DNA of 64,000 nucleotides from Slackia sp. ZJ119 (GTDB taxonomy: Bacteria > Actinomycetota > Coriobacteriia > Coriobacteriales > Eggerthellaceae): positions 1 to 64,000 of the forward strand of contig NZ_JAAKEN010000009.1 of assembly GCF_011039175.1 (NCBI RefSeq), in the 5' to 3' direction. The translations under genes were made by a program, and so were the position numbers. Shown in pieces: positions 39,327-46,899 of the stretch (the stretch's first letter is position 1; each line of letters starts with the position of its first letter). The notes under the pieces were generated by a model. That model was given only the letters and a program-made list of their open reading frames with translations. It ran no database searches and had not been told where the DNA came from.

Positions 39327-39590
39327 GGGAGCAAGCATGCGTATGCCGCGCGACAGGCATTCGCGCTTTCCGAGCTTGCGGAGGGCCTCTGCTCGTCGGT
39401 CGGATCCCTTGCGAATGCCAACAAGATCTCTCGCATCCTGAAGGCCGTGAAGGGCATGGCGGCGGACAACGAGACGATAGCCGCCTATTTGAACCACCTC
39501 GTCGAGCCGTTCCTGTTTCGCTGCGCCAGGCGCTATCAAGGCGCGAGCGCGGACTGGGCAAGAAAGGCGCGGTTGCTGAGGTGCGTGCGA
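39327..39590 (+). pseudogene. fragment of a DUF4143-type AAA ATPase
   Basis: The frame reads LAEGLCSSVGSLANANKISR then ILKAVKGMAADNETIAAYLN and HLVEPFLFRCARRYQ. This is the C-terminal DUF4143 signature of AAA-type ATPases (pattern SLTNPxKISxTLK...TIxxYLxxLxxxFLxxxxxRY). The upstream ATPase domain is absent and the frame runs out shortly after. It is a relic within an accessory region. Confidence 0.6.
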
Positions 39591-39816
39591 ACTAATGTAA
39601 AACGGCCGAGCAACAGAGCACTTCCATGCGCCATTACATTAGTTTCCATCCACTATCTATCTATATGAGCAGGTCATGCGCTTGTCCGGTAATGGAGGCG
39701 CTCTCTCCTCCATTAGTTTGCCTTGTGGGCTCTTGACGAGAACCGAGATGGGGACTTCGCCAACTAATGTAAATGAGCGTAGAATCACATTAGTTTGGAA
39801 ATGGAATTGCATTAGT
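39591..39816. promoter_or_regulatory. six-copy ACTAATG/CATTAGT motif array
   Basis: Copies at 39591 (forward), 39634, 39711 (reverse), 39763 (forward), 39788 and 39810 (reverse), mostly within TTACATTAGTTT contexts. The last copy ends 10 bases before the start codon of the AlbA_2 protein gene. The density and mixed orientation suggest a cooperative binding site, perhaps for that gene's own winged-helix product. Confidence 0.5.
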
Positions 39817-39826
39817 TGGGAGCGCC

Positions 39827-41500
39827 ATGATACGACAGCTGAGCGAGATGCCTTCCCTGGTTCTGCGTCTCATCGGAGACGTTGAAACGGAGGTCGTCGA
39901 GTACAAGGCCGCGAAGCAGAACTACGACTTCGAGGATATTGGGAAGTACTTCTCGGCGCTCAGCAACGAGGCGAACCTTCGCGGCACGGAATGCGGGTGG
40001 CTCCTCTTCGGCATCACGAACGACCGAAAGATCAACGGCACCGCCTACCGCAAGGAGGCGAGCATGCCTAGCGTCGGGTTGCGCCGCCTCAAGCGCGAGA
40101 TTGCGAAGTTCACCAACGAGGGCATGACCTTCGAGGAGATATACGAGTTCGAGATGGAGGGCAAGCGTATCGTTGCCTTCCAGATTCCTGCGGGAACCTT
40201 CGCAACGCCGACCACCTGGCATGGCATTCCCTGGTCGCGCGAGAACGAGTCTCTCGCCGAGATGCCCAAGTTCAAGCTAGAGGCCATCTACGGGCAGAGC
40301 CGCCCTGACTGGTCGCGGCAGCTTGCGTTCGAGGCGAACCTTGATGACCTCGACCCTGATGCGGTGTCGTTCGCCTGCAAGAAGTACGTGGAGAAGTTCG
40401 AGGAAAGTCAGCCAGCCGTCCGCGGCCTGGACGAGGTATCCATCTTGAGCAAGATGGGACTCATCATCCACGGGCATGTGACGAACGCTGCGCTCGTTCT
40501 TCTGGGCAAGTCGGAGGCGAGCGTGTTCCTGGGAGGCATCGAGCCGCGCATCACCTGGACGCTCTATGCGAGCGATGGCTCCACTATCGCATACGAGCAC
40601 TTCGAGCCGCCTTTCATCACGAAGGTTGACTGCGTGCTCGGCAAGATCAGGAACGAGAAGTACCGATTCTTCGATCGCGAGGACACGCTGTTTCCAACTG
40701 AAGCGCACCGCTATAGCCCTGAGGTAATCCGCGAGCTTTTGCACAACGCTATAGCGCACCAGGACTTCCGGATGTCTGGCAAGATCAACGTGTTGGAATA
40801 CGAGGACCGGCTTGTGTTCAAGAACGAGGGTGCGTTCATCCCCGAGACCATTGAGGCTGCACTCGAGAGTGGGTACAAGCCTCCCTATTACCGCAATCCT
40901 CTGTTATCGAGCGCCATGAGCAGGACGGGGATGATGGACCGCAACGCCATCGGTATCCGCAACGTCTTCGACATCCAGCGCGGCCGCCTGCTGCCCATGC
41001 CCACCTACGACCTCACCAGGCCGGCTCGCGTGTCGGTGACGCTCTACGGGACCGTGCTGAACGAGGACTACTCCCGACTGCTTGCCAAAGACCCCAGCCT
41101 GGACCTCGTTACCGTCCTTCTGCTCGACCTGGTGCAGAAGGGGCTTCCTATCACCAAGGACCAATCGCGGCTGCTGCATGAGCGCAAGCTTGTGAGAGGA
41201 CGTTACCCGAAGCTCACTATATCGGCTGAGGTGGCTGCGGCAACCGGCGCACACGGCGACTACGTGAGGGTCAAGGGGCTAGACAACAGCGTGCTCAAGG
41301 AGCTGATACTGGAGCTGCTGCGAGTACGCCCGTGCTCGCGTGCGGAGATCATCGCCGAGTTCGACCATGCGCTGCCAGCTGACCTCACGGCCAAGCAGAA
41401 GGGCGACCACGTGAGCTATCTGCTCCAGTCGCTGCGCAAGGCGGGCCGGATCACGAACGAGGGGAGTACGTCGGCCGCCGAGTGGCGCATCGCCGACTAG
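39827..41500 (+). CDS. AlbA_2 (Schlafen-like) and HATPase domain protein
   Basis: 557 residues. The N-terminal AlbA_2 putative DNA/RNA-binding domain (ETEVVEYKAAKQNYDFEDIG ... LSNEANLRGTECGWLLFGIT) is followed by a middle region and an HATPase_c_4-like domain (VIRELLHNAIAHQDFRMSGK ... INVLEYEDRLVFKNEG). The end has winged-helix-like segments (LLRVRPCSRAEIIAEFDHAL). Such proteins are often labelled RecG-like or putative transcriptional regulators. GGGAG precedes the ATG. The upstream six-copy motif array suggests autoregulation. It lies among defence-type gene fragments. Confidence 0.78.
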   Translation: MIRQLSEMPSLVLRLIGDVETEVVEYKAAKQNYDFEDIGKYFSALSNEANLRGTECGWLLFGITNDRKINGTAYRKEASMPSVGLRRLKREIAKFTNEGMTFEEIYEFEMEGKRIVAFQIPAGTFATPTTWHGIPWSRENESLAEMPKFKLEAIYGQSRPDWSRQLAFEANLDDLDPDAVSFACKKYVEKFEESQPAVRGLDEVSILSKMGLIIHGHVTNAALVLLGKSEASVFLGGIEPRITWTLYASDGSTIAYEHFEPPFITKVDCVLGKIRNEKYRFFDREDTLFPTEAHRYSPEVIRELLHNAIAHQDFRMSGKINVLEYEDRLVFKNEGAFIPETIEAALESGYKPPYYRNPLLSSAMSRTGMMDRNAIGIRNVFDIQRGRLLPMPTYDLTRPARVSVTLYGTVLNEDYSRLLAKDPSLDLVTVLLLDLVQKGLPITKDQSRLLHERKLVRGRYPKLTISAEVAAATGAHGDYVRVKGLDNSVLKELILELLRVRPCSRAEIIAEFDHALPADLTAKQKGDHVSYLLQSLRKAGRITNEGSTSAAEWRIAD

Positions 41501-41840
41501 CAGCAAGAACCGCAGCGAAGCCTTTGCCGCCCGCGCTGGCTGATGGACTGGACGGGCGCGGACGGGCGCGGACGACCGCGTGACGGCAGCAGACCGGACG
41601 AGCGCACACCCGGAGCGTGGGCGGCCGGGCTGCGGACAACCCGAAGTTGGTAGTGCACGGCTTGGCTAGCGACCAGGGGTGGCGGCAAATAAGTCTTAAC
41701 GCCGCAAGCGTGGGAACGCCCGCACGGAACCAGGTCAAACCTCTACGCAGTCGACGGCGAGGTCGGTTGGCGGTTGCCCGAAGTGTGGCGAGAGAAATGT
41801 ATCCATTATCTCCGGCGACTGGGACTAGTGGTGTGGTCGT

Positions 41841-42347
41841 ATGGGCGAATACTTCGTCTGGATCAATCAGGACAAACGGCAATGCCTTGATCAGCGCGCA
41901 TGCGACGACTGCGGCTGGATGTTTGGGATTGCAAGCGTGCAGAGATGCGAACTTACCGAGGCTGCATGCACGCTGATAGCCGGCTCCTGGCGCGGAGGCC
42001 GAGTGATCTTCGCCGGAGACTACCTGTCTTTCGGCGACGAAGAACACGATAGCCGCAATGGGCTGCTTGCGAAGGAATTCGGCAAGCAACCTTATGAAAA
42101 CTGCTACGGCGGAGGTTGCGAGGAGCTGGCAGCGCCTGACCCTATTGTGAGGTACCGTTTCTCAATCAATGAGACCAAGCGTGAGTACGTTGATCGGGGC
42201 AATACGCCCCTCGCCGATGTTTGCGAACTGCCAAACGGCGAGCTTGTATGGAGTCGATACGATCCGGTGCCCCCGTTCTTCTCGCCTGTTCAGAGAGACA
42301 ATGGTTTTATCCGTGGTCGGCGGTGTCTCGATGATGTTCGATTCTAG
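41841..42347 (+). CDS. conserved hypothetical protein (WINQDKR family)
   Basis: 168 residues. The start MGEYFVWINQDKRQCLDQRA and the blocks GRVIFAGDYLSFGDEE and VRYRFSINETKREYVDRG look like a family of small uncharacterised cytoplasmic proteins from gut bacteria. No signal peptide, membrane helix or catalytic motif. The ribosome site is weak (GTGGTG). The last ~15 residues run into rearranged DNA and may not be native. Confidence 0.55.
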   Translation: MGEYFVWINQDKRQCLDQRACDDCGWMFGIASVQRCELTEAACTLIAGSWRGGRVIFAGDYLSFGDEEHDSRNGLLAKEFGKQPYENCYGGGCEELAAPDPIVRYRFSINETKREYVDRGNTPLADVCELPNGELVWSRYDPVPPFFSPVQRDNGFIRGRRCLDDVRF

Positions 42348-42420
42348 CAGGAGCCACCCGGAGAGGGGTGCAGGGACATCTCGCACTGCTGGGTTAGATG
42401 GGGCGAGACGGTGGTGCTTA

Positions 42421-42800
42421 CGACGCTCTTTCTGGCTGCCGAGCCGTTGCATCAAGACGATGTTGGCGCCCCAGGGAATTTGTGCAACAACCTGTTGCAC
42501 AAATTGAAGGTCGGGCCAGATTTCGGCGAACCTCCTCATGTATTTTAAGTTGCGAGGCGAGAATCCCTGCATATCCGGAAACGACTTCTTCAGATCATGG
42601 GACAGCTTGTCGATAACCTTCGCGCCCCAGCCGTGCTTTTTCTGCTGCGTTAAGATTGAATTTCCAATTTGCCAGTAGAGGCCCTTCTGTTTAGGAGCCT
42701 CGTGCGCGTCCATGTAGTCGAACATCTGCTCGAAGCGCCGTCGGTGGTTTTCTGGTATTCCAGCTGGCGCAGTTCCACGGCGCGGATCTGCTCGAACATG
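42421..42800 (-). pseudogene. chimeric fragment: ORF6N-type piece fused to DUF1016 piece
   Basis: 42421-42681 is almost identical to 45670-45928 inside the DUF1016 nuclease gene (two visible differences). It encodes LYWQIGNSILTQQKKHGWGA and on to VAQIPWGANIVLMQRLGS. It is fused at about 42682 to a piece (42683-42800) related to 46505-46625 of the ORF6N-type gene (FDYMDAHEAPKQKG). The result is a hybrid reading frame with no complete domain, made by recombination between neighbours. Confidence 0.75.
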
Positions 42801-42828
42801 ACGGCTGAATAAGCGGCTATCAAGCACC

Positions 42829-45000: not shown

Positions 45001-46080
45001 TCACTCCGTTTCCGAGAGTTTTTCAAGCTCGTTTTCCATCTCTTCGATAGTCGGAAGCCCATCAGCAAGATTGCCGACAAGACTAGACTCAAGCTCTTGC
45101 TGCCAGTCTGCAACGCCGATGGGATTCTTGTAGCTATCGAGCGAGTATTCGACCACAACGTTGTTCTTGCCCATAACGAGCAGAATGCCGATGGTTGGTT
45201 TGTCCTCGGGTTCCTTCAAAATAGCATCGACCACGTTCTGATACATGCTTAGCTGACCCAGAAACCCGGGATCGAATTTGCACGCCTTCAACTCAATGAC
45301 AATGTAGCATCGAAGCTTCAGGTGATAGAAGAGCATGTCAATGTAGTAATCCTCATCCTCGAACTCGAGGTGCACCTGCCTGCCCACGAAGGCGAACCCT
45401 CGCCCGAGTTCCAATAGGAACTCCTGGATATGGTCAGTCAGCTTGTCTTCAAGTATCTTTTCGCGTCGGACGGGGTCTGTTCCAAGGAAGTCGAACAGAT
45501 ACGGATCTTTGAATACCTGCGCTGCCATGTCGGAATCGGCGGGTGGGAGCGTGGTGCTGAAGTTGTTGGGTTCCTGCCCCGATCTTTCCATAAGGTTCTT
45601 GTCTATCATCAGGTTGGGAATGTTTCGGCTCCAGCCCTCTTCGATTGTCTTCTGTGCATACCAAAGACGCTCTTCGGGGCTGCCGAGCCGTTGCATCAAG
45701 ACGATGTTGGTGCCCCAGGGAATTTGTGCAACAACCTGTTGCACAAATTGAAGGTCGGGCCAGATTTCGGCGAACCTCCTCATGTATTTTAAGTTGCGAG
45801 GCGAGAATCCCTGCATATCCGGAAACGACTTCTTCAGATCATGGGACAGCTTGTCGATAACCTTCGCGCCCCAACCGTGCTTTTTCTGCTGCGTTAAGAT
45901 TGAATTTCCAATTTGCCAGTAGAGGCATATCAGCGAGGCGTTTGCCTGAAGAGATATGCTCACCCTGGCAGTTTGTATCCGGTTCTTCAGATCGGCAAGG
46001 AAAGACTCGTAATCCGACTTGAATGCCAGAGAGCTGGATGCGACGGGAATAATGACTCCGTCATCAGATCCGTTGTCCAT
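45001..46080 (-). CDS. DUF1016 (YhcG-type) PDDEXK nuclease-domain protein
   Basis: About 359 residues. The N-terminal DUF1016_N region (NASLICLYWQIGNSILTQQK, KSFPDMQGFSPRNLKYMRRF) is followed by the C-terminal nuclease domain (GFAFVGRQVHLEFEDEDYYI, DMLFYHLKLRCYIVIELKAC; the D...E-x-K nuclease residues are visible in YYIDM and VIELKA). Such genes occur in defence and restriction loci. ATG 46080 has AAAAAGGAA upstream. A 260-bp piece of the gene is duplicated at 42421-42681. Confidence 0.85.
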   Translation of the reverse strand: MDNGSDDGVIIPVASSSLAFKSDYESFLADLKNRIQTARVSISLQANASLICLYWQIGNSILTQQKKHGWGAKVIDKLSHDLKKSFPDMQGFSPRNLKYMRRFAEIWPDLQFVQQVVAQIPWGTNIVLMQRLGSPEERLWYAQKTIEEGWSRNIPNLMIDKNLMERSGQEPNNFSTTLPPADSDMAAQVFKDPYLFDFLGTDPVRREKILEDKLTDHIQEFLLELGRGFAFVGRQVHLEFEDEDYYIDMLFYHLKLRCYIVIELKACKFDPGFLGQLSMYQNVVDAILKEPEDKPTIGILLVMGKNNVVVEYSLDSYKNPIGVADWQQELESSLVGNLADGLPTIEEMENELEKLSETE

Positions 46081-46248
46081 GCGATTCCTTTTTTCTGTAT
46101 CGTCGTTCATATTGCACCATCCGTAGTTTGGTCTTGTATTCCAGCTCATTGGCGGCGATGGAGCGGGCGGGTGCTTTGCTGACAATATAGTATCCGATTC
46201 CTACTTGACGTCGATCACTCCGGCGCGACGGTGTGTAAAATCCAGAGC

Positions 46249-46899
46249 TTAATGCTGCGAAGTACGGACGTGCTCTTGCATTTTGGGATTGTCCGCAGAC
46301 CCCATGCTCATTTCATCGTGCTGGTCGAGGCGCGGGCGAGGATGAGTCCAAACGACGGCATCCACGCCGCCTTGCTTCTTCGCCAGGATGCTGAGCGTGT
46401 CCGTACCTACGTAGCCGTCGATCAGCACTATTTCGCGCTTCGCCCGCCGCGCGAGCGACACCAAAAGCTCGAACGCGTCCCAGACCTGGCCGTCGAAGAA
46501 CACCTTCTGCTTGGGAGCCTCGTGCGCGTTCGTGCAGTCGAACGCCCGCTCGAAGCGCTCGTCGGTCGTCTTCTGGTATTCCAGCTGGCACAGTTCAACG
46601 GCGCGGATCTGCTCGAACAGAGCGGCGTTGCTGGCGATGAAGTGGCGCATCTCGACGAAGGCATCCATGATTTGGACACTCACACGCACGGCTGTCTCGC
46701 TTCTGAGCACGGTGGAGAGCATTGCCACGCCCTGTTCGGCGAACATATTTGGGAGTTTGCGGCGTCCGCCGCTGCCCTCTGCCTGCTTTGAAGTCGAAAT
46801 TTGTGACTTCAAAACTTCCCACTCCTCTTTGCTCGACTGAAAGCAGAAATGTTCGGGGATAAGTTCTCTTGGGCTCGCGGCATAACTCAAGAGGCGCAA
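46249..46899 (-). pseudogene. truncated ORF6N/KilA-type DNA-binding protein gene
   Basis: The frame matches the C-terminal two thirds of ORF6N-type proteins: KLPNMFAEQGVAMLSTVLRS, VSVQIMDAFVEMRHFIASNA and VWDAFELLVSLARRAKREIV LIDGYV (in two parts). The N-terminal ORF6N domain is missing; only the last part (IPEHFCFQSSKEEWEVLK) remains. The C-terminus is also atypical. The gene shares recombined sequence with 42683-42800. Confidence 0.65.

Follow-up and report, generated by a model that had tools for sequence, protein, structure and literature searches.

What are six copies of one heptamer doing in front of a single gene? In the window, by which we mean the whole 64-kb stretch of DNA analyzed here, ACTAATG occurs six times in both orientations within the 226 bp that precede a gene for a protein with AlbA_2 and HATPase domains, the last copy ending 10 bp 5' of the ATG at 39827 and adjoining GGGAG. 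An initial annotation, made from the letters of the sequence, had pointed to this cluster, placed its last member near the start codon, called it far above chance and suggested autoregulation. All six copies proved exact (Table 1).

Six sites bracket a predicted promoter

The claim of an excess over chance held for the clustering and not for the total. Six ACTAATG in 64 kb are unremarkable as a count, since 3 of 100 shuffles reach six, but the copies are concentrated: the window has none outside the array, and among its 7325 canonical 7-mers with at least three different letters, ACTAATG alone has six non-overlapping copies in any 226 bp (with the rate taken from the shuffles, the Poisson probability of at least six is 1e-16, uncorrected for having picked this word and this place). 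Nor is the motif equally common elsewhere in the genome (2.84 Mb in 40 contigs), where 6 of its 19 copies lie at the array; the same word read backwards, our control, occurs 49 times. The extended 11-bp core, AACTAATGTAA, has three copies genome-wide, all three at the array, and its control has none.

The six sites bracket a sigma-70-like promoter predicted from the consensus, with sites 4 and 5 within it and directly after it. Its -10 hexamer is kept in all eight aligned sequences, those of the window and seven motif-sharing relatives (TAGAAT in five, TATAAT in three; L117, which carries another motif, was left out). Over the last 75 bp, compared between the window and four relatives of 94-96% identity, all 21 motif columns are invariant, as against 23 of the 43 other columns (Fisher 5e-5), and the 6 columns of the -10 hexamer and 5 of the ribosome-binding site are likewise all invariant. 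Site 3 overlaps a TAATGGAGG/CCTCCATTA palindrome at 39690-39715.

On the far side of the gene, 50 bp past the stop codon, three 10-bp GC-rich units were seen by eye at 41550-41579 (GGACGGGCGC twice and a variant), where a simple word count found no strong array. A piece upstream of the array that had been considered as DUF4143 has no Pfam match. Farther downstream lie two minus-strand features, at 42165-42827 and 45001-46185: a complete gene for a DUF1016/YhcG PDDEXK nuclease, assigned to PDC-S02 by PADLOC, and 2.2 kb from it a truncated DUF1016_N copy. The N-terminal part of the truncated copy shares a short peptide with an ORF at 46249-46899, and the copy looks like a chimeric partial duplication.

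Table 1. Positions of the sites, the predicted promoter and the encoded domains in the window
Feature	Position	Strand	Sequence or evidence
Site 1	39590..39600	+	AACTAATGTAA, exact core; heptamer at 39591
Site 2	39634..39644	-	AACTAATGTAA, exact core; heptamer at 39637
Site 3	39708..39718	-	AACTAATGGAG, 2 mismatches to 11-bp core; heptamer at 39711
Predicted sigma-70-like promoter	39757..39785	+	TCGCCA-17-TAGAAT; consensus prediction, 1 found against 0.3 expected in shuffles
Site 4	39762..39772	+	AACTAATGTAA, exact core, inside -35/-10 spacer; heptamer at 39763
Site 5	39785..39795	-	AACTAATGTGA, 1 mismatch, right after -10 hexamer, over expected transcription start; heptamer at 39788
Site 6	39807..39817	-	AACTAATGCAA, 1 mismatch, right before GGGAG ribosome-binding site; heptamer at 39810
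Gene with Schlafen AlbA_2, GHKL HATPase_c_4 and winged helix	39827..41500	+	557 codons
SLFN_AlbA_2, residues 20-143, with E20, E25, K27	39884..40255	+	Pfam, E 4.7e-11
HATPase_c_4, residues 319-406	40781..41044	+	Pfam, E 1.1e-12
C-terminal winged helix, residues about 484-557, candidate DNA-reading head	41276..41497	+	AlphaFold model

The gene encodes a protein with Schlafen architecture

The AlbA_2, HATPase and winged-helix-like parts that the initial annotation had recognized in the product were all borne out, the first two by Pfam and the third by an AlphaFold model. SLFN_AlbA_2 scored 43.7 bits, above the Pfam gathering cut-off of 25.3, and HATPase_c_4 48.2 bits against a cut-off of 26. Of 72 members taken, 67 exceed 400 residues, and conservation was counted in the alignment of these. 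The GHKL N-box (E303/N307/H311), just before the HATPase_c_4 match, is kept in all 67; in the E-x4-E-x-K Schlafen signature, E20 is kept in 65, E25 in 57 (with D in 8) and K27 in 65. A third acid is variable, the window protein having N65/D66 and column 65 holding D in 45, N in 9 and E in 7 of the 67. The model, computed from 14 sequences (alignment A2), has a mean pLDDT of 82 and a pTM of 0.64. Its residues 484-557 matched winged helices, with residues 485-556 resembling the Z-alpha and ArsR types (for example 4kmf_A, with Z 10.1 and rmsd 1.6 over 61 aligned residues), and residues 1-159 aligned to structures of the SAMD9 tRNase/DNA-binding domain (Z 9.5-9.6, rmsd 3.6-3.7; 144 aligned at Z 9.6). 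With AlbA_2, a GHKL ATPase with its N-box and, in the predicted model, a wHTH, the window protein has the prokaryotic Schlafen architecture, for which we take COG2865 to be the label.

The best full-length structural match was DIP2311 of Corynebacterium diphtheriae (PDB 3LMM; Foldseek E 7e-23). Its alignment with the window model, at only 16-19% identity, covered 416 residues with a VIA-align Z of 22 and an rmsd of 14.2, the latter suggesting that the domains are placed differently. The window protein is a bacterial relative of the Schlafen proteins of humans, which are antiviral. Compared with the AlbA_2 domains of human SLFN13, SLFN12 and SAMD9, its third acid is uncertain, and we treat the domain as a putative RNase. 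In rat SLFN13 the catalytic pair E205 and E210 is separated by five positions (PMC5862951), a spacing that E20 and E25 reproduce here.

Other searches with the window protein returned little: NCBIfam gave no match, PADLOC gave weak matches to argonaute-associated models and nothing else, and phmmer against PDB sequences gave none at E 0.01. Plasmids gave 51 records, of which 4 spanned 80% of the query or more, all below 60% identity, and phages gave 6 records, of which 1 spanned that much. No relative was found on viral contigs (0 of 57 pattern stretches).

Most close relatives keep the motif, many distant relatives carry other repeats

A motif search upstream of homologues, proposed by the initial annotation, revealed conservation. 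Eight distinct relatives have 66-96% identity to the window protein, and the ACTAATG motif stands upstream in seven of them: those of Adlercreutzia (L002/L042, 96%), an Olsenella MAG (L043, 95%), an Atopobiaceae MAG (L047, 95%), an Eggerthellaceae MAG (L031/L046, 94%), a genome of the host genus (L003 in G002, 68%, with one exact copy upstream and the motif downstream as well) and Bifidobacterium (L044 and L045, 66% each, with the motif both upstream and downstream). The eighth (L032/L117 in G118, 69%) has no ACTAATG and carries TAGACTAG-type repeats on both sides, the array word at L117 being CTAGTCTA. Copies of TACATTAGTT are likewise concentrated at the locus in five relative genomes (4 of 5, 5 of 5, 4 of 4, 3 of 3 and 2 of 3), in which the backwards word has 3, 2, 0, 0 and 1 copies. 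The 95% Atopobiaceae copy (L047 389-1294) lacks an internal stretch, its alignment to the window gene breaking off near +830 and resuming near +1621; this looks like a deleted gene with its three-site promoter array kept, and a MAG assembly fault is possible.

Beyond this group the motif gives way to others. At 44-49% identity, L048 has a different motif, and no repeat motif was found at L004/L049 or L033. Among the more distant relatives L048 and L050-L057 (37-49%), inspection by eye found other tandem repeats in seven of nine (L048, L050 and L052-L056), directly after the end of the match or a few hundred bases from it; examples are TTTAGATGAG in a Methanofastidiosia archaeon (L050), TTTAAACGAGT in L052 and TTTTAGACATT in L056. 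The same inspection found no clear repeats at L051, from a second archaeon, or at L057.

We surveyed the family more widely with a fixed detector. Among the 6-10-mers that occur three or more times without overlap, strand disregarded, no farther than 300 bp from the start or stop codon, it takes the one with the best score. In the order of the host, 61 of 71 distinct places were examined, with 203 genes from the same regions as controls. Of the other ten, five belong to the window's clade or are its 45% relative and were analyzed on their own, and five were fragments or had not been retrieved. Private repeats scoring at least 2 occurred at 30 of 61 homologues and 19 of 203 controls (Fisher 1e-10, kinship ignored), and at a score of at least 4 the counts were 20 of 61 and 8 of 203. 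The Lachnospiraceae, as a replication with the same detector, gave 11 of 22 homologues versus 10 of 87 controls (Fisher 2e-4, kinship ignored) and, at a score of at least 4, 5 of 22 versus 0 of 87. This set comprised every place, 22 of 35, whose open frame reached 400 codons; one was misplaced by an internal stop and counted as a miss, one was already in A2, and one has 73 bp upstream. The better side was upstream in 17 of the 30 arrays and downstream in 13, and it was downstream in 6 of the 11 Lachnospiraceae arrays. No array was detected at 31 of 61 and 11 of 22 homologues. Across all relatives, private arrays were seen in several bacterial phyla and one archaeon.

L087 (G004:C9:643768-644163) is a 203-codon ORF that matches residues 416-546, in the C-terminal part, alone; CGCGTAA repeats lie nearby, and a full-length homologue bearing a different motif stands about 4 kb away.

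Spacing is helical and motifs are private

Adjacent copies are mostly 10-12 or 20-23 bp apart, such phased gaps making up the majority in 26 of 30 arrays and in 10 of 11 from the Lachnospiraceae, versus 7 of 15 control arrays, and distances between copies in the same orientation peak at 10-12, 20-22 and 30-34. These gaps correspond to helical turns, which fits proteins aligned on one face of duplex DNA. The runs for same-orientation distances and for motif sharing were made with L051, L055, L057 and L058 left out: the frame match of L055 is broken, many stops interrupt that of L057, and the other two had not been added.

Motifs can differ between homologues of a single genome. Four of the nine homologues in G006 have a detected array, with the motifs AAGTACAA, ATCAGGTAGA, GGAGTA and TCACTGCAA, and the second homologue of the window genome (L086, on contig 12) has CTCTAACCT repeats, a different motif from that of the window gene. 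Three of the seven copies of AGGTTAGAG in the window genome are at L086, this word being not rare genome-wide (control 9). In G160, seven of nine TATATCGGAA copies flank its gene (control 4), and five other genomes hold 0 or 1.

Sharing of motifs falls off with protein identity. Counted over ordered pairs, the motif was shared by 39 of 80 at 60% identity or more (24 of the 39 in the window's clade), 9 of 106 at 45-60% and 0 of 117 at 35-45%; among pairs that fall below 35% or do not align, 23 of 2537 shared it. Judged from these comparisons of sequence, the sites and the protein appear to diverge together. The 41 of 80 pairs at 60% or more that did not share a motif include some partners without any detected array; clear switches, with an array in both partners, were seen at 69% (window versus L117) and 75% (L084 versus L086). 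Motifs are also shared across genera at 58-79% protein identity. A comparison of 17 sharing with 42 non-sharing pairs singled out no specificity domain; in residues 409-470, pairs at 55-75% identity were 56% identical when sharing (14 pairs) and 51% when not (18 pairs; p 0.06).

The array as a probable private self-operator

We consider it probable that the six sites form a private operator, on which the gene's own protein would bind cooperatively and in phase to repress its own promoter. Autoregulation, as the initial annotation had it, is best supported because the sites bracket the promoter, the -10 hexamer is kept, and the motif is conserved upstream of relatives and rare elsewhere; it agrees less well with arrays that lie downstream and with the roughly half of the family at which none was detected. 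The protein would bind AACTAATGTAA-like sites, probably in oligomeric form and aligned along a single face of the duplex, and would then cover the -35/-10 spacer, the transcription start and the region of the ribosome-binding site, repressing its own transcription, while the outer sites may strengthen repression by looping. A potentially growth-arresting Schlafen-type RNase would in this way be kept scarce, and release might come when the GHKL domain binds a nucleotide, or in response to phage or stress. Many lineages of the family have an array of their own, placed at the promoter, directly behind the stop codon or in both positions. The arrays whose best side is downstream (13 of 30 and 6 of 11) are not accounted for by simple promoter occlusion; such arrays may have a part in looping or keep the protein near its own gene.

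In a further reading, which we think improbable, the array itself would be the antitoxin, the RNase staying silent while it sits on its flanking array or arrays and being freed when the array DNA is degraded, displaced, copied by an invader or lost. If true, one gene and its DNA sites would make up a one-protein addiction and defense switch whose specificity is rapidly re-invented between lineages.

Mobility, other binders and chance accumulation

The arrays could instead mark where a small mobile unit (array, gene, array) ends or recombines as it moves between genomes, regulation being secondary, an explanation we hold to be unlikely. Between the outermost motifs, at -64 upstream and +1763 downstream, the two Bifidobacterium loci have 92% identity, and immediately beyond these limits the resemblance ends. 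Near-identical modules (94-96%) lie in different genera with different flanks, and shared limits with different flanks indicate that gene and array travel together. Of 61 homologues, 12 lie between direct repeats that measure 30 bp or more (up to 232 bp) at 80% identity or better, as does 1 of 116 controls, and tyrosine recombinases occur near L043 and L046. Against this, Pfam finds no transposase or recombinase domain in the protein, the outermost motifs of L044 and L045 are in direct and not inverted orientation, the integrases nearby can explain transfer, and some of the flanking repeats (L092, L100, L056) are duplicated neighboring sequence without the motif. Three attempts to find an empty site, each incomplete, gave no clean one. 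The window's upstream flank had matches in 11 of 137 family genomes, its own included, that were otherwise short or partial; a Bifidobacterium flank had matches in 5 of 112, its own included, the three inspected having partial flanks only; and the L100 flank was found in 9 of 9 genus genomes, its own included, the sequence beyond it differing in those read and none being clean.

Several of these flanks have features of their own. No flanking direct repeats of that kind were found at the window gene. The AlbA_2/HATPase genes at L092, L056, L100 and L102 have flanking direct repeats of 89-232 bp, which at L056 and L100 look like duplicated 3' ends of neighboring host genes. The L045 module has tRNA-Leu(cag) on one side and, downstream, a second copy of the end of that tRNA with the terminator hairpin; this duplicated sequence also flanks the L044 module left and right, and the arrangement looks like a tRNA-linked integration hotspot. 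An HsdR gene is found near L043.

In type III toxin-antitoxin systems, tandem same-strand repeats are transcribed as an antitoxin RNA, and the short repeats beside a single putative RNase gene, whose AlbA_2 domain resembles Schlafen/SAMD9 RNase domains, might likewise act as RNA. We rejected this as the main reading and give it very little credence: the sites occur in both orientations, their phasing is that of duplex DNA, and some lie upstream of or inside the predicted promoter and would not be transcribed with the gene. Many operators are bound by separate regulators. The array could accordingly belong to another regulator, encoded by the host or by an element, with the gene as its client, and the available text of PMC7554251 places a small putative transcription factor in the TrlG operon; here this seems to us a rather poor prospect, given a motif that has few copies elsewhere in the genome, accompanies the gene into other genera and families and is not the same at paralogues within a genome, and a protein with a modeled winged helix of its own. 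Least credible of all is an unselected accumulation of repeats near horizontally acquired genes. Clusters, some of them phased, do occur at control genes (19 of 203 and 10 of 87), but motif columns are conserved while spacers diverge, the spacing is regular, and different genera have a motif in common at 58-79% protein identity.

Relation to known systems and significance

Plasmid iterons and parC repeats are private repeats, phased at 10-11 or about 22 bp beside a Rep or ParR gene, and are often autoregulatory. The window array is similar, but a role in replication or partition is not indicated. AbiE provides another likeness, its toxin-antitoxin operator being autoregulated through several repeats at the promoter according to PMC7319586, so that there too a conflict gene is autorepressed. 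The same source has a separate antitoxin bind the AbiE repeats, whereas in the window one polypeptide would carry both effector and DNA-reading domains; and unlike AbiE-type operators as presented there, the motif of the window family can switch between close homologues.

For the protein, the available text of PMC12839542 reports prokaryotic fusions that join a Schlafen-type RNase with a minimal histidine kinase (GHKL) and a wHTH, gives at least 1017 taxa in which they lie near BREX or related loci, lists such fusions among backup suicidal effectors and cites a preprint (10.1101/2025.07.24.666596) on bacterial Schlafens in phage defense. The three-part architecture is like that of the window protein; that text describes no DNA array, unlike what is seen at the window locus. 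In PMC7554251, the Photorhabdus TrlG locus, patchily distributed, arrests replication on a temperature up-shift, which also induces transcription of the operon, and trlG mutations or deletion of the operon permit growth at 36 C. TrlG combines AlbA_2 and HATPase_c_4 as the window protein does. Unlike the window gene it sits, in that account, in a three-gene operon, where its putative partner is the small protein with homologues annotated as transcription factors. The Schlafen RNases near BREX and the arrest by TrlG are consistent with a toxic protein needing tight control, and by analogy with its protein family and this literature the window protein may have a putative phage-defense role.

A promoter array at the window gene alone would be ordinary, an autoregulated conflict gene being a known thing. 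What appears new is the recurrence of private, switching, helically phased arrays as a family trait. This family-wide pattern had no match in the literature searched, where we found no description of such Schlafen arrays (preprints being outside the coverage of the search). Bacterial Schlafens are now proposed as phage-defense effectors, and how potentially suicidal proteins are silenced is a question that the arrays address, offering a testable answer in the form of a self-operator or a DNA tether. The arrays are also a signature by which family members with matching sites can be found, and some forty protein-site pairs are a natural set for a recognition code of the winged helix.
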